From: a virus
Direction: 5' to 3' (one strand)
DNA length: 26,642 bases
IMG/VR virus record: IMGVR_UViG_3300037584_000112
Span: 1-26,642 of that record
Shown: in pieces, positions 3,700 to 16,943 of the stretch
How the letters are laid out: each line of letters begins with the position of its first letter
How positions within the stretch are numbered: the first letter of the stretch is position 1
Position numbers and translations under genes: made by a program
Notes under the pieces: model-generated
Seen by the model: the letters and a program-made list of their open reading frames with translations, nothing else
Database searches by the model: none
What the model was told of the DNA's origin: nothing

Positions 3700-4022
3700 T
3701 GGCTAACGTATACAAAAACGCTAAAGTGGATTTGACGGCCACCACTGCGACTACGCTGTATACATGCCCAACAGCTACTACAGCAATTATTAAGTCTATT
3801 CTTGTGTCTGAGGACTCAGGCAACGCTGACACGATTACCGTAACTATTACCGATTCTGCTTCGGCAGTATTTAGCGTGTTCAAGGTCAAAGCAGTGGGTG
3901 CGAACACCACGATAGAACTACTTACCGCTCCGCTCGTCATCGAAGAGTCCGAAATAGTTAAGGTCACCGCAGCTACGGCCAATAGGCTACACGTAGTAGC
4001 TAGCCTGCTAGAGGTGTCGTAA
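3699..4022 (+). CDS. Small beta-sandwich virion protein (decoration or tail-tip type)
   Basis: I place the start at GTG 3699, which overlaps the previous TAG (TAGTG), rather than the TTG at 3684; this gives MANVYKNAKVDL and a 107-aa protein. It is almost entirely short beta strands rich in T, V, A and I (TTLYTCPTATTAIIKSILVSEDSGNADTITVTITDSA), the signature of a single jelly-roll or Ig-like domain. The VYKNAKVDLT...TLYTVP-type opening is frequent in small marine phage structural proteins. It could decorate the capsid or cap a tail protein. It has no membrane or catalytic signal. The stop shares a base with the next ATG. Confidence 0.7.
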   Translation: MANVYKNAKVDLTATTATTLYTCPTATTAIIKSILVSEDSGNADTITVTITDSASAVFSVFKVKAVGANTTIELLTAPLVIEESEIVKVTAATANRLHVVASLLEVS

Positions 4023-7000
4023 TGGCAGTTGAAGACTTAGCAGCGCTTACACCAGAAGAGTTGCAAGAAAAAATAAACGCTTATTTTGATAGCGATGAGG
4101 GCAAAAGCTATCTTGATGACATTACAGCCAACACGTCTGACGAGTATACAAAAGCCTCGCTTGAGGAATCGGGAACATCCAACATTGCAGGGGCGCTTAG
4201 TTTTGTTAAGCCGCTGGATAGTGATGCACTGGAGACATGGAAAAGCCAAAACCAAGTCACAGATGACAATAACAATAGTTTTTTAGAAAACGACCAACTG
4301 TATCAACTTAAGGTATTTGCAGCTTCACAGCCTAAGTATGTGCCTATAGTGCCCGGAGAGGGGAACAGACGGCAACAAAGAATGGCAGAAGCATCAAAAA
4401 CCCCCGGTGCTATTTACTCTGACTTCGGTGCTTATTCTTTGGCGTTACAGGCGCACAACAAAAAGATAACTGAATACGTAGAACAAGAAGATATACCTAC
4501 ATCCGTAACTACTCCTGATGGGGTAGAGATGAGCTTAAATCTAGGCATATCGCCCATGTATTACAACGAACAAAATGACGGCGGTAGGGTCTCACAAAAA
4601 TTTAAAAACGGCGCTACTGGAGACTACTACAAACAGCTAGGTGGGGTAGGTGAGTACGGCACATATTATGTAAAAGAAAAGAAAACTGATTGGCGAGACA
4701 GCCTTGAAGCCTCTATACCGTTTGTAGCTGCATTTGTTGGTATATCAGTAATAGGGCCAGCAATAGCGGCAAAGGCTGCAGGAACGAGTACAGCGGGGGT
4801 AGGGGCAGCAGGTGAATTAACCTACGCGCAAGTTATTTCTCGCGTGCCTACAGCGGCTAGTTACAACACTGCCACGGCTGGTGTAACCAGCACCATATCA
4901 AACGCTATAAACGCCGTTGGCTCTACAATAGGTTCGGTTGCAAGCGCTGTAAGTGGGGCAATAGCAGAGGGTATAGCGACAGTTCTTCCGGGTATTAGTG
5001 CAGAAGCAATAGCTCCAACCATAGATGTTTTGGGGTCGATAACCGCTGCAGCTACGGGCGTATCTTATGTTGAATACGCTAAAAATAAAGCAGCGGCAGA
5101 TGCTATAGGTGGAGCTATTAGTGTAGCTGCAAACGGACTTCCCGGTGGGGGTGTTATTTACTCTGGCCCCGGTGCTGGTGGTGACGGTGTATTTGACCCA
5201 AATGTTATTTCCAACCTTACTACGATAGCTGCAGCGAATAACGGAGCAGCGGAAGACGAAGAAGCAGCCGCAGCAATAGATGTGACAGAGTTAGCCGCAG
5301 CAGCCATAGCCGCCATAGATAACCCAGATGACGACGAAGCTGTTGTAGCTGCAAATACTGCAGTAAGCGAGGCAGAGGCAGGAGTAGAAGAAGCCGCAGG
5401 CAATGTAGCCACCGTGGTGGAAGAAGAGAATGCTAAAGCAGATGGTGCAGAGTCGTATGCTAGGTATGTAGCTAGTCGTTATGGCACACGCAGTTATTCT
5501 TATAGAAACGCAAAGAAACGAGCGGATAAAGCTAAACTAGACGCGCAGAATAAAATAAATAAGGCACGAACTGCGGCTAGTGTGGCACAAGCTGAGTTGG
5601 AAGACGCTAGAGAAGCACAGGCGGGCGCTGCCCGAGACGCAGACGATGCGTATAAAAGTGCTCGCGCCCAAGCTATTCGTGACGCTGAAGCTGAAGCTAA
5701 CAAACGACGATCAGAGATAGACGCTAGAAATGCGGCTAGAAAAGAAAAACTAGAAAAAATACAAACCACTACAACCACAGATCAAGAGGCGTATAACAGC
5801 GCCTTAGAAGAGTCCAACACCAACGCAAATAACTCTGCTGCTGAGACGGTAGGAGACATAACGACCCTTACAGATGCCGTAGAAGAAGTTACAAACAAAG
5901 TAACAGAAGAAGTTACAACAGAGGCGGATAAATCTGCAGAAGAAGCTAAGCCTGTAGAAGAAATAGTAGAAGAGGTAGTAGAAGAAGTAGCAGAAGAAGC
6001 TAAGCCTGTAGTAACTACTTCAGACGGAACCGATGCGCCTACTACGGAAGTTAAATACGAAGAGCCAGACGAACCGATAGAAGTCACTACTGAGGTCGAG
6101 CCGGTTGAAAAGCCCGAAGACCCGCCGTTAGAAATAGAAAAGCCTGTTGTAGAAAAGCCTGTAGAAGAAGTTAAAACCGATGATGGAGGCGGTGGAGGCG
6201 GTGGAGGCGGTGCTGGTGAAGGTGCCGGTGCTGGACAGGGTGGTGATACAGGGGCCGATGCTGAAGTAGGCACCACTACGGCTGCAGAAAAAACTAAAGT
6301 AGAAACAACAGAAACAACAGAAACTCCAGCGAAGACTGCTGATGTAGGTTTAGGGGCAAGTGAACCAATAGACGGCAAATGGAGACGAGATCCTGATGAC
6401 CCTAATGGGTGGATTCATATTCTTACCGGCACCACTTTTGAAGAAGGGCAGGGGGGAAAGTGGAGAAATAAAAGCACTGGAGAGGTAGTTGAAGAGTTTA
6501 CTGAACCCACAGAAAGCACAGATGAAGATAAAGAACTTATAGAAGTTACCGGGGCAGGAACTGGACTAGGTGGAGGGGCAGACACTCCCAGTTCTACAGA
6601 CACTACAACTGCGCCTTCTGAAACAACAGGTGACATTGATTTAGGAACACCGGCTTCCTCCACAACTGGGGTTAGTTCTACAACCACTGCAGGTGCTGCT
6701 GCAGGCACGGATACTACAACCACGGCTACTACGTCTACAGGCACGGCTGGTGCAACTACAACACCTACCGAAACGACCACAGGTGGGGCTGGTACAGGTG
6801 CGGATCTAGGTACAAGTGATACCGCTGCGAATGAAGATCAGGCAGGTGCAGGTGCTGACGGGGCAGGCACAGGAACTACTGGCCCTGCGGATGAGGTGGG
6901 TACAAGTGCTGCCGATGTTACAGGTACAGGTACAGAGGTTTCTGATGTTACAGGTACAGGTACAGGTGCTTCTGGTACTCCCGGTGTAGGTGCTGGCAAT

Positions 7001-7405
7001 GTAGGCAATCCCGGTGATGTAGGCGAAGGTACGGGTGCAGGAGCAGGTACGGGTAGTGGTACGGGGAGCGGTACAGGGGCAGGAGAAGGGCCGGGAGAAG
7101 GTAGTGGCCGAGGGTCAGGCAGGGGCACAGGCATAGGTAACCAAATATTTGCTGCTCTTATGCAACCGCAACAGGTTCAAGTAAAGGCAGGGCCAGTTGC
7201 GGGTGATATAACTCCATACGATTTCAGTAGTATATTTGCAGACAAAGAACAGGCGAGTAAATTTATTACGCCTTATGGTGTGCGCAAGGCCGCTGCAGGT
7301 GGCGTGATACGCTCAGACACTGATACTATAATAAAGCAGTTAGAACGTAAGAAAAAACCTGCTGATACGATGGAAGATTTGTTCCGTATCATTGGAGGAA
7401 AGTAA
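4022..7405 (+). CDS. Giant low-complexity internal-virion-type protein
   Basis: The 1127-aa product has ordered ends around a repetitive centre. Residues 1-220 are acidic and mixed; about 230-255 is hydrophobic (SIPFVAAFVGISVIGPAIAA), followed by Ala/Gly-rich helices to 370. About 480-580 is a charged K/R/E/A coiled-coil, 600-715 is E/V/K/P-rich with repeated AEEAKPV and VEKPV units, then come a run of nine glycines, a small WRRDPDD...KWRNKSTGE segment with paired KWR motifs, and a Gly/Thr/Ala tract to about 1040. The C-terminus returns to a conserved-looking domain (SIFADKEQASKFITPYGVRKAAAGGVIRSDTDT). Position next to three ejection-type proteins and the shared AGGV motif suggest an internal virion or tail-length role. 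Function is not demonstrated. Confidence 0.7.
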   Translation: MAVEDLAALTPEELQEKINAYFDSDEGKSYLDDITANTSDEYTKASLEESGTSNIAGALSFVKPLDSDALETWKSQNQVTDDNNNSFLENDQLYQLKVFAASQPKYVPIVPGEGNRRQQRMAEASKTPGAIYSDFGAYSLALQAHNKKITEYVEQEDIPTSVTTPDGVEMSLNLGISPMYYNEQNDGGRVSQKFKNGATGDYYKQLGGVGEYGTYYVKEKKTDWRDSLEASIPFVAAFVGISVIGPAIAAKAAGTSTAGVGAAGELTYAQVISRVPTAASYNTATAGVTSTISNAINAVGSTIGSVASAVSGAIAEGIATVLPGISAEAIAPTIDVLGSITAAATGVSYVEYAKNKAAADAIGGAISVAANGLPGGGVIYSGPGAGGDGVFDPNVISNLTTIAAANNGAAEDEEAAAAIDVTELAAAAIAAIDNPDDDEAVVAANTAVSEAEAGVEEAAGNVATVVEEENAKADGAESYARYVASRYGTRSYSYRNAKKRADKAKLDAQNKINKARTAASVAQAELEDAREAQAGAARDADDAYKSARAQAIRDAEAEANKRRSEIDARNAARKEKLEKIQTTTTTDQEAYNSALEESNTNANNSAAETVGDITTLTDAVEEVTNKVTEEVTTEADKSAEEAKPVEEIVEEVVEEVAEEAKPVVTTSDGTDAPTTEVKYEEPDEPIEVTTEVEPVEKPEDPPLEIEKPVVEKPVEEVKTDDGGGGGGGGGAGEGAGAGQGGDTGADAEVGTTTAAEKTKVETTETTETPAKTADVGLGASEPIDGKWRRDPDDPNGWIHILTGTTFEEGQGGKWRNKSTGEVVEEFTEPTESTDEDKELIEVTGAGTGLGGGADTPSSTDTTTAPSETTGDIDLGTPASSTTGVSSTTTAGAAAGTDTTTTATTSTGTAGATTTPTETTTGGAGTGADLGTSDTAANEDQAGAGADGAGTGTTGPADEVGTSAADVTGTGTEVSDVTGTGTGASGTPGVGAGNVGNPGDVGEGTGAGAGTGSGTGSGTGAGEGPGEGSGRGSGRGTGIGNQIFAALMQPQQVQVKAGPVAGDITPYDFSSIFADKEQASKFITPYGVRKAAAGGVIRSDTDTIIKQLERKKKPADTMEDLFRIIGGK
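5936..6011 (+). repeat. 22-base direct repeat, two copies
   Basis: The same 22 bases occur at 5936-5957 and 5990-6011 with a spacing of 54 bases, in frame. They encode AEEAKPV twice, within a stretch dominated by GAAGAAGTA-type codons. This marks slippage- or recombination-driven expansion in the acidic linker of the 1127-aa protein. Confidence 0.85.
6184..6210 (+). repeat. Triplicated 9-base unit encoding nine glycines
   Basis: GGAGGCGGT is repeated three times in tandem and encodes an uninterrupted Gly9 tract. It separates the acidic E/V/K/P-rich linker from the Gly/Thr-rich half of the 1127-aa protein and is a probable flexible hinge or replication-slippage hot spot. Confidence 0.8.
6914..6965 (+). 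repeat. 30-base period repeat encoding DVTGTGT twice
   Basis: A 22-base stretch at 6914-6935 recurs exactly at 6944-6965, giving a 30-base (10-residue) period, DVTGTGTEVS then DVTGTGTGAS. It lies inside a wider ACAGGTACAGGTACAG-rich tract (about 6790-7140) that encodes Gly/Thr/Ala/Ser low complexity. Confidence 0.8.
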
Positions 7406-8165: not shown

Positions 8166-9128
8166 ATGACAAACGGAACTGGTGATGGTACTGGTGGAAA
8201 CGCTGGAGCAGGTGAATACACAAACTTTACGCCTCAAAGAACAGGTAGCTCAGATTCACTTGCTACCTATGCTGGCCCCTATGTTACCGATATGTTGGGC
8301 AGAGGTCGGGCACTTGCTGACCAAGGCTATCAAGCCTACACAGGGCCGCTTACCGCAGGGCAATCTCAACTACAAGACACAGCGTTCCAAGGTATAGCTA
8401 ACCTAACTGTACCTACTACGAGTATGGGTGCGTTTAACCCCGGAACTTTTGCTGCGTCTGGCGCTCCTACAATGACCACAGAGGGGGCTAATGCTGCTGC
8501 CGCTACAGGTATAGTGGGTGAGTACATGAACCCCTACCTATCCGCAGTGCTAAACCCGCAACTAGAAGAGGCACGTAGACAGGCAGAGATAAGTAGGCAA
8601 GCAGAAGCGGGTAGGTTCACTAGATCGGGTGCATTTGGCGGCTCCCGCCAAGCCATTGCAGATTTAGAACGCGACAATATTCTACAACGCAATTTAGCTG
8701 ATATAACAGGTAAAGGGTATGCGTCAGCATTCGATGCCGCTAGACGGCAATTCAATGAAGAACAACAACGACAGCAGACAGCTAGAGATGCTGCAAATCG
8801 TTTTGGGCTTGATGCACTTGCAGCGCAGACCAGAGCGGGAGAGATACAACGCGGTATAGAGGCAGAAGGTATTGCTGCTGATTTAGCACAGTTTGAAGAA
8901 GAACGAGACTTCCCATACAAGAACGTACAGTTTATGCAGTCACTGCTTGGTAAGCTACCACTTACAACACAGTCTTACACTTATTCACAACCTAGTCAGT
9001 TGAGCAACATACTTGCTGGTGGCGGAATAGCTGATGTAATAGCGTCATTGCTTGGCGGGGCTGGCGGTAAAAAAGAAGAAAAAGAAGAAGAAACTACTGA
9101 CCCCAATGTTGGGAGGCAAATTACATGA
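8166..9128 (+). CDS. Probable DNA-ejection (internal virion) protein
   Basis: This 320-aa protein is preceded by AGGAGG (8156-8161). After a Gly/Thr-rich start comes DMLGRGRALADQGYQAYTGPLTAGQSQLQDTAFQGIANL, then MNPYLSAVLNPQLEEARRQAEISRQAEAGRFTRSGAFGGSRQAI. A long Ala/Arg/Gln/Glu helical region follows (about residues 170-250), then a Gly-rich segment (LAGGGIADVIASLLGGAGG) that could insert in a membrane, and a charged tail. This architecture is very common in marine podovirus genomes between tail and giant ejection genes. By position and helix content it resembles the T7 gp14/gp15 or P22 gp7/gp20 class, though sequence alone does not prove that. Its stop overlaps the next start by four bases (ATGA). 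Confidence 0.72.
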   Translation: MTNGTGDGTGGNAGAGEYTNFTPQRTGSSDSLATYAGPYVTDMLGRGRALADQGYQAYTGPLTAGQSQLQDTAFQGIANLTVPTTSMGAFNPGTFAASGAPTMTTEGANAAAATGIVGEYMNPYLSAVLNPQLEEARRQAEISRQAEAGRFTRSGAFGGSRQAIADLERDNILQRNLADITGKGYASAFDAARRQFNEEQQRQQTARDAANRFGLDALAAQTRAGEIQRGIEAEGIAADLAQFEEERDFPYKNVQFMQSLLGKLPLTTQSYTYSQPSQLSNILAGGGIADVIASLLGGAGGKKEEKEEETTDPNVGRQIT

Positions 9129-10814: not shown

Positions 10815-13800
10815 ATGCGCTTATATAACGTACTGTTAAATGATGGCACTAGCGAAACAGTAGAGGCTCCCGAGAACGCTACTAGAGAGCAGTTAGCCGA
10901 AGCTATAAATAGAAAGCGTGTTGGCCCTTCTATATATGAAGCCTACAGTAAAGAGGCGGTAGATAGACGGCGTACTAAATTAACACAACTAAGAAGCGAA
11001 TTAGCTGAAGCTAGAGAAAAAGCTAGTGAAGCGCAAAGAGGTAGTTTTTCTCGCGGTCTAGATATAGGAACTGATCTTGTAGCTCAAGCTACTGGCTCTG
11101 GTTTAGAGGGTATAGGTAGCCTACTTGGGTTAGAAGGGCTTGAAGAGTATGGTGCTGAAGTAGCCCTAGAGAACGAAGCTGATATACAGCGTAAATCTCG
11201 TTACCAAACTAAGTTTGACGATATTGAAGGTGCTGAAGATTTTTTCTCTTATCTTGGTGGTGTAGCTGCCGAGAGCGCCCCTGCTACGGCTGCTGGTATT
11301 GCTGGTGGTATTGCTGCCGCTGCCGCTGCTCCCGTTATAGGCGTAGGTGCTGTCGCTGCCGGTATTGCTGGTGCTACCCTTGCAAACCTGCCGTTCTTCT
11401 ACGGTATGAACCGTGAACGTCAAAAAGAAGCCATAGAACAAGGGTTTAGAACCGAAATAAGTGAAGGCGCTGCTTTTCTTACTGCACTGCCTCAAGCGTT
11501 GTTGGACGGTATTGTTGACCGCTTGTTAGTTGGTGGTGTTTCTAAGTTAGGTGTTACAGAAAAAGCACTTACCGGCGGCGGTATATTTACTAGAAGTACA
11601 AAGGGCGCAGGTTTAGGTGCGGTTGTAGAGGCACCCACAGAGATAGGTCAACAGATACTGGAGCGTGCCCAAGCTGGTTTACCTTTAGATAATGAAGAAG
11701 CACTTGCCGAATATAGAGAGGCAGGCATAGCAGGCGGCTTATTAGGTGGTGCCATTAGAGGAACCACAAGCGCTGCCGGTATTGGTATTGATACAGACGA
11801 TACTTCAGATACAACGCCAACTCCTACACCCATCTCTGACCCCGATGTAGGTGTAGAGGCTGCGGATGACACAGGCGGCATTGCTAGTCGCTTCTTAGAC
11901 CCAGAGTTTGTAAGTTCTCAAGAGCTTGAAGGCGCGGACAGGACTGCTACAAAGCTAGCTTTAGAGGAGATATTAGCTAGAGACCCCACAGCCACACGGG
12001 AAGAAGTTAAAGCAAAGGTAGCCGCAGACCCTAGAGTCGTGGAGGCTGCGCAAAAAGAAAGAGAAGAAATCACCTCAAGATTGGCTGCAGGGGCAGAGCT
12101 TACAGAAGAAGAAATTAGTCAAAGAATGGCTGCTGTAACTGATGAAACACTAGCAGCTACCACCGAGACAGAAGCGGCACGCGAAGCTACTGAAACTGGC
12201 GGCGTTGAAGAAGCGGCAGTAGAGACCGCCCCCGAAGTAGAAACAGAAGCGCAGCCCGCACCAGAAAGACCCATAACTGCTGAAGATCTTAAAACTTTTG
12301 GTATTCGTAAAGGTTCAAAGGCAGCGAAGTTTGTAGGTCAAGACTTAAACAACGCAGAAGTAAGAAGTGATTTTAAGGCTGCTGTTGGTAAGTTAAAGAA
12401 CAGCTTGGCAATACAAGACAACATAGCTAGGACTCTTGAAAATGAACGACAAGCCCAAGTTACGGAAGTTACAGAAGAGTCAAGTGGAGTCAGCGTTCCG
12501 AGTGATATACAAGGCGCACCAGAGCCAGAAGGAGACGGTGATACCGCCAGCACTGTTGAGTCTGGACGAGGAACAGTGGGAGATGTTGACGATAGCTCTG
12601 GACGACCTGCTACTGGAACTGGAAGAAGCGACCCTGCACTAGCCCCAGCAAGTAAAATAGAAACACTTGAAGGTATGGGCTTTAAGATTAACGGCAGGGA
12701 GGGTAAGAAAAAGAAGCAAGAGCCAAAGCCTCAACAGGTAGCTGGTGTAGAAGCACCCACAGTAACAGAACTACCTAACAACGAACTTGAATTTAAGTTT
12801 GGCGACACAGGGCCGGTATTTAGAGGTAAGCAAAAAGAAGGTGTCATAGATATAGAAGGCGCACCAGAAATTACAGCGTTTTCTAAGAACGAAGCGGTAA
12901 GAAAGCTACAAACAAAAGTAGCGGGTGCTGGGTTAGAAGCACAAGCGGGTAGAGCTATAGCAGGGCAAGCAGAACTACCCGCAGTAGAAACTGAAGAGAC
13001 CGTAACTCCTACAGAAGATGTAGTCGAAGGCATATCAACCAAAAGAGAAGTAGCGCTATCTAAAGAAGATACAGGCGGAGAAGCCGTACTAAGCCGTAAA
13101 GAACTAATGCAGGAAGCTAGGGCTATGGGGCTGTCCACTGCAGAGGCTAAAGAATACACAGATGCAGTGCTAGCTGGTATAGAAGGCTTAAACCTAGATG
13201 TTGGCGAACTATATCTACTAGGCAGGGGCGTAAAAGGTCTGGACGCACCGCTACCGAGCAATGCTGTCACGGCGTTACAGGCCGGTGATATAAAAAGTGC
13301 TCTAGAAACTGTTGCAAAAAGTACGTCTAACAAGGATATACGGCAAATTGCTAGGAAGTTAATACCTTTAGTGGGCACCACTAGGGTAAGGCTTGCGCGA
13401 CTACAAGAAAACTTACCAGAAAACGCTTCTGCAATAGACAGATTCTTGTCCAGAAAAGTTAGTCGTATCACAGAAGGTAGCCCTGTGTTCGGACAGTACT
13501 ACCCCGGTGCAGAAAGTGTATTAAACCAACTGTCTGCTGATGCGACTATAGAGGAAGCTAGAATACAGGCTAGGCTTGCTGACGAGATAGAAAACACCAT
13601 AGTCCTAAATCAAGACACTGCAGAAGGTATGTCTGTGGTTACATTGCTACATGAGATGACGCACGCAGCTACAATAAATACATTGGCTCAACCGTCAAAC
13701 CCAGTAACGACGCAGTTACGAACCATATACAATAGTGTAAAAGAGCAGTTACAGGGGCTGTATGGTTCAGAAAGCCTAGAAGAGTTTGTGGCAGAAGCGT

Positions 13801-16800
13801 TTAGTAACCCCATGTTTCAGCAGAGGCTCGCTAGGATAAACATAAAAGGCGAGCAACTAAGTGCCTTTGACCGATTCAAGAACGCTATACGCAGGCTATT
13901 TAGACTCCCCATAAAAAAAGATACTAAGCCCGTATCCAAAGAAGTTAATGCCCTTATAGAACAAATACTAGCGCCCGCTCCACAGTATAGAGGGCTAGGC
14001 ACAATATCTAATAGTTCTTCGCCTAGAGAAGTGGCTGCTATAGGTGAGGCTTTGAAGAACCGCACTGCGGGCGCGTTTAGTAAAACGAGTAGGGAAGTCT
14101 TAGCAAACAGGATAAAGGGTATATTTTCTGGCCCCCAAAACCCTGCTTCTGTAGCAGCCAAAAGGGTAGTAGGTGGATTCTTACCGAACAGTAGTATTGG
14201 GGATTGGGCGGACTCACTAGGTTTAGACGGTGCCACAGACGTACTTGAAGCTATAGAAAATCAACGGGGCGATCTTAGTAGGTCAGAGCAAGTCACACGA
14301 AGAAAACTGCTGCCCATACTGCAGTGGGGCAACAAAGCCACTAAAGAGATAAGAGACAGATTTAACGATGTTGTATACATCAGCACCATAGAAGGAGTAG
14401 ACCCGTCAAAAGATTTGTCTGCTTATACAGGTAAAAAGTTAACCATATATAAAGAGCTTAGAAGAGAGTTTGATAAGTTAGGCCCAGATGGACGAAGGGC
14501 GTATACCAACCTGCGTGACTTCTACAAGTACCAATACAACCAACTGCTAAAAGCGCTAGAGGGCAGGATAGACGAGCTAGAAGCACCCCAAGAAGTTAAG
14601 ACTAATCTTAAGAACGAACTGCTTGGTCAACTACTGCGACAAGCAAAAGAAGACCCATACTTTCCTCTGACTCGTAAAGGTACATATTTCTTAGCTGTTA
14701 AAGACCCCAAGGCACAGGCTAATTCTGCCGTGTTTTCGTTTGAGAACAATGGCGACAGAAACATGGCTATAGATGAGTTTACAGAGATGGGCATGGACGT
14801 TGAGATCTTTGACCCTAATGACTCAACTATGTATACGGGTGACTCGGTGCCCCCAGCGTTTGTCGCTAATGTCCTGCGGACACTAGACGCTCAAGTAGGC
14901 GCATTAGAACCAAACCAAAAAATAGGCTATGAAGCGGCAAGAGAGCAGATAACTAAGTTATTTATACAATCACTGCCAGAATCTTCTTTTGCGAAAGGGC
15001 TGCAGAAACGTAAGAAAACAGAAGGCTACGACAAAGATGCGTTAGAAGCTGCTAGAACAAAAGGCTACGACCTAGCTAGACAGGCCTCACGCATAAAGAA
15101 CAGCGCTATAATTCAATCCAAACTAACGTCGTTTTTAGAAAAAAGTAAAGGCGGAGATGTAGAAGTAGTTAGAGAAATACGCGAACGAGCGAAGTTTGCG
15201 ATGAACCCGCCCAAAGACAACTTTGCAAAGAACTTAAATCGCATGGCGTTCTTGTGGACTATCGGTTTCAATGCCTCTTCTGCCTTGGTCAACTTATCTC
15301 AGATACCACTTTTTGCGTACCCAATGCTCGCTGGTAAGTATGGTTATGCCAACACAAGTGCGGCTATAAAAGATGCGGGTAAGTTGTTTGTAGGCACACC
15401 CCTAAACCAAACACAAGAAACTTTGTTTGGCGGTACTCGTAATGCTAGATCAATAAGAGAAGCGTTAAAGGGTAGAGATAAACTTAAAAATGTTATGGAA
15501 GCTACGCAGGATAAAGCGCAGCCTTCATTGGAGAACTACTACACAGTTACAGAGTCTGACGGTCAACTTACATATGCGGTGCGAGAAGACCTAGACCTTT
15601 CGCAAGAGATGAAGACAGAGCTTGAAAACTTGGTACCTCTAGTTCGCTTAGCTGCTAGACGTGGGCAGTTGGGTTCTTCTTTCATAGCAGAGACACTTAG
15701 CGTAGATACTTCTGGAAGAGACATAAGTAGAGCCGATTTTATAACTAATATGTCTGCTTTGATGTTTCATACCGCAGAAGTTATGAACCGCCAAACTACA
15801 TTGGTAGCAGCGTACAAACTTGCTTTGGACAAGGCTACAAAAGGTAAAGATCTTACAGAATCTCAATTAAGAGAAGCAGAACAGAAAGCCGCTGCAGACG
15901 CAGTGTATGAGACCCAACAGATAAACGGCGGGGCTAACCTAGAAACTGGGCCAAGATTTGCACGCTCTGGTGTTGGTCGTGTGGCTCTTATGTATAAGAA
16001 CTACGGCATCACCATGTACTACAAGATGCTGAAGACCGCATGGGAGGGCACAAAAGCAGCTTACGGTGGGGACACAGAGGCAGCTAAAGTGGCATTTAAG
16101 CAGTTGGCAGGGGTGCATATGTCCGCATTGCTGCTAGCAGGGGTGCAGGGATTACCACTGTACGGCGCAGCCACAATGATATACGACATGCTGGTAGGTG
16201 ATGAATCAGAAGAAGACTTTGAGACGTTTGTACGCCGATCTTTAGACAACGAGATGCTATACAAGGGAGTTCTGTCAGAAGTAACTGGGCTGGATGTATC
16301 TAAACGTGTGGCGTTAACTAACTTGTTATTTGAAGCAGACAGATTTAACTCTAATCCATCACCCGAAGAGTCGTTTATGCACTTCTTTGGTGGCCCAGCG
16401 TGGAGCGTAGGCTCTAGGGCTTGGGAGAGTTTTGAAGATCTTTGGCGTGGAGAAGATATGGAGCGAGCGTTTGAGGGTATGGCACCGGGAGCCATACGTA
16501 ACGCTTATCGTGCTCTGCGTAGATACCCCAGAGACGAAGGCATCCTCACTCGTAGAGGTGACCCCATGTACGACGATATAACCGGCGGACAGTTGTTCGC
16601 GCAGTTGCTTGGGTTCCCGCCTACAGAGTATATGAACAACATGGAAGAGTCCTCTAAAGCCAAGCGTATGAATGACGCCGCTGCAAACAAACGAAGAAGA
16701 TTGTTAAAAAGATATTATGTAGCAATGCGGTTTGGCGATTTCATGGAGGCAGACAACATACGACTAGAAATGGCTGAATTTAGTAACTCTAGGGCGGTGC

Positions 16801-16943
16801 AGCAAGATCCAAAACTGGCTATAACACCAGAGACTATTGAACGGTCTATGAAAGCTCACGAACGTACAACCACTAGAATGCACAACGGTGTGTTGTTATC
16901 TCCTGCCACGCGAGCGACTGTGGAAGCTGAAGGTTTTTTCTAG
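10815..16943 (+). CDS. Giant polyvalent ejection protein with HEMTH zincin domain
   Basis: The 2042-aa protein begins with a short beta-hairpin/helix leader (residues 1-35) typical of phage virion giants. Ala/Gly hydrophobic stretches at about 153-190 and a glycine zipper at about 303-325 could enter a membrane. Acidic linkers follow to about 640. Residues 946-950 are HEMTH, with EEFVAEAFSNP at 989-999 offering Glu990 or Glu994 as a third zinc ligand, a metallopeptidase pattern seen in phage polyvalent proteins. The C-terminal 550 residues contain FLWTIGFNASSALVNLSQIPLF and SGVGRVALMYKNYG...MYYKMLK, resembling large polyvalent-protein-associated domains (LPD38-like). As the last gene before the convergent terminator it is the probable counterpart of T7 gp16: packaged, injected and possibly proteolytic. 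The ribosome binding site is weak. Confidence 0.75.
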   Translation: MRLYNVLLNDGTSETVEAPENATREQLAEAINRKRVGPSIYEAYSKEAVDRRRTKLTQLRSELAEAREKASEAQRGSFSRGLDIGTDLVAQATGSGLEGIGSLLGLEGLEEYGAEVALENEADIQRKSRYQTKFDDIEGAEDFFSYLGGVAAESAPATAAGIAGGIAAAAAAPVIGVGAVAAGIAGATLANLPFFYGMNRERQKEAIEQGFRTEISEGAAFLTALPQALLDGIVDRLLVGGVSKLGVTEKALTGGGIFTRSTKGAGLGAVVEAPTEIGQQILERAQAGLPLDNEEALAEYREAGIAGGLLGGAIRGTTSAAGIGIDTDDTSDTTPTPTPISDPDVGVEAADDTGGIASRFLDPEFVSSQELEGADRTATKLALEEILARDPTATREEVKAKVAADPRVVEAAQKEREEITSRLAAGAELTEEEISQRMAAVTDETLAATTETEAAREATETGGVEEAAVETAPEVETEAQPAPERPITAEDLKTFGIRKGSKAAKFVGQDLNNAEVRSDFKAAVGKLKNSLAIQDNIARTLENERQAQVTEVTEESSGVSVPSDIQGAPEPEGDGDTASTVESGRGTVGDVDDSSGRPATGTGRSDPALAPASKIETLEGMGFKINGREGKKKKQEPKPQQVAGVEAPTVTELPNNELEFKFGDTGPVFRGKQKEGVIDIEGAPEITAFSKNEAVRKLQTKVAGAGLEAQAGRAIAGQAELPAVETEETVTPTEDVVEGISTKREVALSKEDTGGEAVLSRKELMQEARAMGLSTAEAKEYTDAVLAGIEGLNLDVGELYLLGRGVKGLDAPLPSNAVTALQAGDIKSALETVAKSTSNKDIRQIARKLIPLVGTTRVRLARLQENLPENASAIDRFLSRKVSRITEGSPVFGQYYPGAESVLNQLSADATIEEARIQARLADEIENTIVLNQDTAEGMSVVTLLHEMTHAATINTLAQPSNPVTTQLRTIYNSVKEQLQGLYGSESLEEFVAEAFSNPMFQQRLARINIKGEQLSAFDRFKNAIRRLFRLPIKKDTKPVSKEVNALIEQILAPAPQYRGLGTISNSSSPREVAAIGEALKNRTAGAFSKTSREVLANRIKGIFSGPQNPASVAAKRVVGGFLPNSSIGDWADSLGLDGATDVLEAIENQRGDLSRSEQVTRRKLLPILQWGNKATKEIRDRFNDVVYISTIEGVDPSKDLSAYTGKKLTIYKELRREFDKLGPDGRRAYTNLRDFYKYQYNQLLKALEGRIDELEAPQEVKTNLKNELLGQLLRQAKEDPYFPLTRKGTYFLAVKDPKAQANSAVFSFENNGDRNMAIDEFTEMGMDVEIFDPNDSTMYTGDSVPPAFVANVLRTLDAQVGALEPNQKIGYEAAREQITKLFIQSLPESSFAKGLQKRKKTEGYDKDALEAARTKGYDLARQASRIKNSAIIQSKLTSFLEKSKGGDVEVVREIRERAKFAMNPPKDNFAKNLNRMAFLWTIGFNASSALVNLSQIPLFAYPMLAGKYGYANTSAAIKDAGKLFVGTPLNQTQETLFGGTRNARSIREALKGRDKLKNVMEATQDKAQPSLENYYTVTESDGQLTYAVREDLDLSQEMKTELENLVPLVRLAARRGQLGSSFIAETLSVDTSGRDISRADFITNMSALMFHTAEVMNRQTTLVAAYKLALDKATKGKDLTESQLREAEQKAAADAVYETQQINGGANLETGPRFARSGVGRVALMYKNYGITMYYKMLKTAWEGTKAAYGGDTEAAKVAFKQLAGVHMSALLLAGVQGLPLYGAATMIYDMLVGDESEEDFETFVRRSLDNEMLYKGVLSEVTGLDVSKRVALTNLLFEADRFNSNPSPEESFMHFFGGPAWSVGSRAWESFEDLWRGEDMERAFEGMAPGAIRNAYRALRRYPRDEGILTRRGDPMYDDITGGQLFAQLLGFPPTEYMNNMEESSKAKRMNDAAANKRRRLLKRYYVAMRFGDFMEADNIRLEMAEFSNSRAVQQDPKLAITPETIERSMKAHERTTTRMHNGVLLSPATRATVEAEGFF
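12442..12642 (+). CDS. Candidate overprinted 66-aa gene inside the giant ejection gene
   Basis: In the frame shifted by one base relative to the 2042-aa gene, an ATG at 12442 opens a 66-aa protein ending at TAG 12640-12642. It starts MNDKPKLRKLQKSQVESAF and continues with a helical stretch, a PPALLSL turn and an amphipathic helix DEEQWEMLTIALDDLLLELEEA. This looks like a compact folded protein, with Trp, Tyr, Met and regular hydrophobic spacing. The host frame here encodes only a Ser/Gly/Asp/Glu/Thr linker (about residues 543-610), so it is free to tolerate an overlap. A TTG lies two codons upstream, and AGGACT at 12429-12434 is a weak ribosome binding site. It may instead be a chance open frame; no other frame embedded in this window looks as protein-like. 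Confidence 0.45.
   Translation: MNDKPKLRKLQKSQVESAFRVIYKAHQSQKETVIPPALLSLDEEQWEMLTIALDDLLLELEEATLH

Follow-up and report, generated by a model that had tools for sequence, protein, structure and literature searches.

A family of small proteins overprinted in the +1 frame of giant PLxRFG-type phage genes

Known gene overlaps and the locus in the window

Embedded spanins such as lambda Rz/Rz1 consist of a small late gene inside another gene, often in the +1 frame and with its own Shine-Dalgarno (SD) site, and they are commonly missed by gene callers; in a survey of two-component spanins, 182 of 528 systems were embedded (PMC6139136). The 66-aa protein described here is nested in a similar way. 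However, an Rz1-type o-spanin was rejected as its identity, since it has neither the signal peptide nor the lipobox Cys of Rz1 and its host is a 2042-aa PLxRFG protein, not an inner-membrane spanin (i-spanin). Gene E within gene D of PhiX174 is the classic internal phage overlap and resembles the nested gene in this respect (PMC8227390). The embedded architecture itself is thus of a known kind, and the overprinted phage protein family that it houses here is new and unannotated. PhiX174 E is a membrane lysis protein of a compact 5-kb genome, whereas the nested protein is predicted to be soluble and helical, and the contigs that carry it reach about 64 kb. Overprinting on disordered regions of eukaryotic viruses (PMC8227390), including the HBV polymerase spacer (PMC9093120), likewise has a disordered partner that relaxes the constraint on shared bases, and overprinted novelties are expected to lean to disorder (PMC8227390). 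In contrast to the eukaryotic-virus cases, the guest looks folded and complex in the structure model, and the disordered segment appears to be that of the host.

The window, the whole 26,642-nt stretch of DNA that was analysed, carries the features collected in Table 1. The sequence-only reading had placed a 66-aa ORF in a second frame of the 2042-aa gene, and its coordinates proved exact: the ORF runs on the + strand from ATG 12442 to the TAG at 12640-12642 and encodes MNDKPKLRKLQKSQVESAFRVIYKAHQSQKETVIPPALLSLDEEQWEMLTIALDDLLLELEEATLH. Because a TAG shuts the nested frame upstream, the start codon must fall in the six codons that follow it. An alternative start at TTG 12436, which would add two residues, was set aside, as the homology to the relative L004 begins at the ATG. 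Across the same bases the host frame is a Ser/Gly/Asp/Thr/Pro linker (NERQAQVTEVTEESSGVSVPSDIQG...), and the contrast drawn in that reading, which set a helical nested product of high complexity against a Ser/Gly/Asp linker in the host, was real.

Table 1. Features of the giant gene, its nested frame and its neighbour (window coordinates)
Feature	Position	Strand	Evidence
Upstream neighbour gene, 'DNA ejection protein' PHROG 4287, late virion block context	8166..9128	+	E=5e-7
Giant host gene, 2042 aa, PLxRFG/tail-700-type virion or ejection-like protein	10815..16943	+	NCBIfam NF032893 E=2e-98; PHROG 10089 'DarB-like antirestriction' E=1e-50
TAG shutting the nested frame upstream	12424..12426	+	sequence
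AGGA, weak SD-like site 9 nt before the ATG	12429..12432	+	-3.9 kcal/mol, one of the family's four weakest
Overprinted CDS, 66 aa, +1 frame of the giant gene, ATG to TAG	12442..12642	+	conservation
LPD39 (large polyvalent protein associated) domain, host residues 1169-1261	14319..14597	+	Pfam PF18858 E=1e-9
Tail-700/PLxRFG domain, host residues 1281-2031	14655..16907	+	NCBIfam profile

The C-terminal tail-700 domain of the host protein scored 330 bits against a curated cut-off of 100, and the host gene belongs with the PLxRFG/'DarB-like antirestriction' giants (NF032893, PHROG 10089). Its identity as an ejection protein is plausible on the grounds of the PLxRFG/tail-700 domain, the LPD39 domain and a position at the end of the virion gene block. 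Comparison with L004, L017, and L021 showed the giant to be mosaic: identity to L004 is 93-95% over residues 100-300 but 13-55% over most of the remainder, and the gradient against L017 runs the other way.

As a bare observation, the 66-aa ORF is modestly unusual and of only mild interest. Of 2000 synonymous recodings of the giant, 34% produced an open +1 stretch of 71 or more codons at some point along the gene, and 2.2% produced one of 66 or more codons within this linker; length is therefore poor proof and was set aside as evidence for a gene. Longer antisense ORFs also lie within the giant gene (for example, 12731-13471, 246 aa). The case for a real nested ORF rests on comparative evidence rather than on length or composition.

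Relatives of the nested protein

Apart from a contig identical to the window, the same giant with its cassette was present in four other distinct virus contigs. A profile built from this close set detected diverged copies (~40-45% identical) in giants that had been retrieved through their N-terminal part, and it was then taken through two more HMM rounds against IMG/VR. The family after iteration comprised 47 distinct nested proteins, all from uncultured metagenomic virus contigs and some of them near-identical. Every one of the 47 lies wholly inside a giant ORF and in its +1 frame, as an overprinted gene should. The host ORFs span 970-2468 aa, some being ended by contig ends, and homology to the conserved C-terminal part of the window giant was detected in all hosts that extend far enough, except L160. 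Searches of whole records found a single copy in each positive record.

No stand-alone relative of the 66-aa protein was found among the 47 members or in any collection searched. The nested profile detected no copy in 24 records with a cassette-free homologue of the giant, indicating that the nested gene is accessory, nor in ten named phage records searched whole, four of which were matched by the giant. The named-phage relatives of the giant (Skulduggery, douglas 12A4, POI1126, and Itty13) thus differ from the window in the absence of a nested copy. In the cassette-free homologues the entire cassette was missing and no broken remnant was recognisable; in the cassette-carrying homologues the nested frame contained no stop or frameshift. 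The sequence-only reading had held that broken nested frames and a lack of stand-alone relatives would together count against a gene; the second was observed and the first was not, and both were needed.

The cassette has been exchanged between giants that share just 25-35% identity over their C-terminal parts. The divergence of the nested proteins was weakly congruent with that of the host C-terminal parts (rho 0.20), and we therefore make no case for simple vertical inheritance. Between L004 and the window, the DNA from the nested ATG to the TAG is ~88% identical, and the host flanks on both sides cannot be aligned. The cassettes of L047/L052 and of L048/L049/L050 are ~99% identical downstream of unrelated host sequence, and the recombination junction between L047/L052 and L048/L050 coincides precisely with the nested start codon, ATG being replaced by GTG.

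Selection on the nested frame and its translation signals

As a check, the sequence-only reading had proposed looking for fewer synonymous substitutions in the host frame across 12442-12642, and a strong reduction was found. Between the window and L012, host positions 1/2/3 differed at 11/3/1 sites inside the ORF (65 host codons), and synonymous host changes there amounted to zero; the corresponding counts over the remaining 1968 codons were 132/77/384 (Fisher p = 6e-6). The inside/outside comparison of L015 with L012 gave a similar result (Fisher p = 4e-7). Since host position 1 corresponds to nested position 3, the changes fall where the nested protein tolerates them. When the whole giant was scanned with a sliding 60-codon window, the cassette ranked as the most extreme segment against both L012 and L004; against L013 it was among the two lowest windows, and the top window partly overlapped it. 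The nested stop is TAA in three relatives and TAG in the window, a silent stop change. The host flanks at 12294-12441 and 12675-12855 are nearly identical to those of L012, and the cassette between them holds 15 differences; on these comparisons, the contrast suggests that either the flanks or the cassette may have been exchanged recently.

Substitutions across the family were counted in 18 non-overlapping sister pairs among the 47 members. Differences at nested positions 1/2/3 numbered 147/71/259, so that the silent position of the host (nested position 2) was the least variable and that of the nested frame (position 3) the most variable. Selection on the host alone predicts most change at nested position 2; the least was seen there, and the pattern is therefore not host-driven. 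In 1077 of 1081 pairs the nested frame showed the higher identity; where nested identity averaged 74%, for example, the mean for the host frame was 46%. As judged from these alignments, purifying selection is shown to act on the amino acids of the nested frame. A second 69-codon +1 ORF, at 9508-9714 of L042 and 6832-7038 of L044 and starting with ATG in both, served as a negative control. There the host frame was 84% identical against 75% for the nested frame and nested position 3 changed least, the host-driven pattern of a chance overlap, and this ORF was rejected as a gene. Other long +1 and +2 frames in the homologous giants look compositional or due to chance and were likewise not retained. 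A codon-usage test of frame age, following an idea in PMC3744397, placed the nested frame lower than the host in 25 of the 47 members and thus favored neither frame as the older.

The third sense frame was interrupted by stops in all 47 members. After random synonymous recoding of the nested protein, the host frame stayed open in only 0.24% of cases; since it is open in 47 of 47 members, both frames are kept.

Nested starts were ATG in 34 members and GTG in 13, and stops were TAG in 28, TAA in 18 and TGA in one. SD pairing of -5 kcal/mol or stronger was found at 43 of the 47 nested starts (median -8.0), compared with 9.5% of 4425 control starts, namely out-of-frame ATG/GTG codons in the same host genes (p = 1e-29), as expected of a gene with its own translation signal. 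AAGGAG at 6-7 nt spacing was common among members, and unrelated upstream flanks each provide an SD of their own. The SD of the window is one of the four weakest among the 47, its group being the exception. No sigma-70-like internal promoter was found ahead of the nested gene, and the simplest route would thus be translation off the message of the giant gene.

These data bear on three readings in which no free small protein is made. An untranslated chance frame arising from linker composition might be suspected from the recoding frequencies and antisense ORFs described above, and from the lack of a relative in INPHARED, PHROGs, Pfam, and PDB. However, 47 homologues keep the start and stop and most keep the SD, the homology to L004 ends sharply at the ATG and at the stop, and the L042/L044 overlap, a true product of chance, behaves in the opposite way; together with the position-specific changes against L012 and in the sister pairs, this refutes the chance reading, which we regard as scarcely credible. 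The conserved module could alternatively be the host linker itself, with the nested frame as a mere by-product: short host motifs such as SGVSVP recur, and the cassette also forms a discrete host segment. The substitutions run the other way, with the fewest changes at the host third position (71 of 477) and the most at host position 1 (259), and with host amino acid identity below that of the nested frame in nearly every pair; conservation of the linker as the driver is refuted by the sister pairs and is extremely improbable. Programmed +1 frameshifting would yield a truncated giant with a helical tail. SD-like sites can stimulate +1 shifts, as in prfB, and one lies ahead of the overlap; in some members (L103, L105) the nested frame is also open for 10-80 codons upstream. 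Nevertheless, the frame opens right at the start codon in L048, L092, and L095 and one codon before it in L004, leaving almost no room for a shift, and the SD spacing and ATG/GTG starts are kept though the flanks have been replaced, which makes frameshifting very unlikely. The reading that we favor, in which the embedded gene is under selection and is translated from an internal start site of its own, is highly probable. That the ORF is a real gene, as the sequence-only reading had proposed, is supported by the 47 relatives, the position-specific substitutions and the SD signals.

Predicted protein and possible roles

Alignment of the family gave the conserved core [QK]x[QE][VI]ExA[FM] ... [IVM]PxxLxxL ... 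[QE]WxxLxxALxxL ... [LIV]H, and E16, A18, P35, L38, L41, W46, L49, L53, L56, and H66 were invariant in 18 diverse members. The C-terminal residue is His in 46 of the 47 members, L119 with Gln being the exception. The codons for this final His and the stop (CAY TAR) also dictate Leu (YTA) in the host frame, so the constraint could come from either frame. An AlphaFold2 model based on 18 members showed two helices at modest confidence (pLDDT 76); the helices would span approximately residues 12-28 and 43-65, with an IPxxLxHL turn between them, in a probably soluble protein. The 66-aa protein has no Cys, signal peptide or membrane segment, and its N-terminus is basic, without a hydrophobic stretch.

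Foldseek searches of BFVD and PDB with this model returned nothing significant, and neither did a PDB sequence search, tblastn against INPHARED (up to E 10, several family members as queries) or a search of GTDB contigs. The PHROGs, Pfam, NCBIfam, and PADLOC profiles gave only scattered, sub-significant matches. The best Pfam match, to DUF2922 (E=0.0009, with E<=1 in 3 of 18 members), is weak for an 18-member scan. No description of this overprinted gene was found in open-access papers. The whole protein family is thus absent from the annotation libraries searched, probably because gene callers suppress nested frames, although selection on it is strong in numerous uncultured phages.

In the proposed mechanism, the giant virion gene would read through a disordered linker whose +1 frame encodes a small protein of ~60-75 aa. 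The linker may have served as the landing site because it need only remain open and hydrophilic. To make the small protein, ribosomes would initiate internally on the late mRNA of the giant gene, at a binding site specific to the nested frame, and expression would come from the virion operon.

Two roles were weighed for such a product. As it is encoded only in cis within this one virion gene, it might be made together with the giant and serve as its small partner in assembly, loading or solubility, a role that we put forward tentatively. The fuller account is likewise a possibility rather than an expectation: an ancient family that exists solely in overprinted form, is inherited or exchanged as a start-to-stop cassette and supplies a dedicated partner from the message of its client. 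Alternatively, the protein could be real but have a job unrelated to the giant, in host takeover, counter-defence or regulation, and merely occupy a permissive linker from which it moves by recombination. The exchange of the cassette between giants with such divergent C-terminal parts and its accessory distribution favor an unrelated job, and roles of this kind are frequent among small soluble helical proteins of similar size. However, a late-gene position is unusual for takeover proteins, the family never occurred outside this one gene in the collections searched, and the PADLOC defence library gave no match. We give the unrelated job an even chance, a weight comparable to or slightly higher than that of the partner role.

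Under the favored reading of a selected embedded gene, the family offers a clean natural test of overprinting, in which a folded guest in a disordered host has persisted through deep divergence and been exchanged in one piece. On this example, the linkers of giant virion proteins in phages merit a scan for further nested genes. In the same virion block of the window, a 1127-aa Thr/Glu/Gly-rich protein without a PHROG match (4022-7405) contains long low-complexity stretches.
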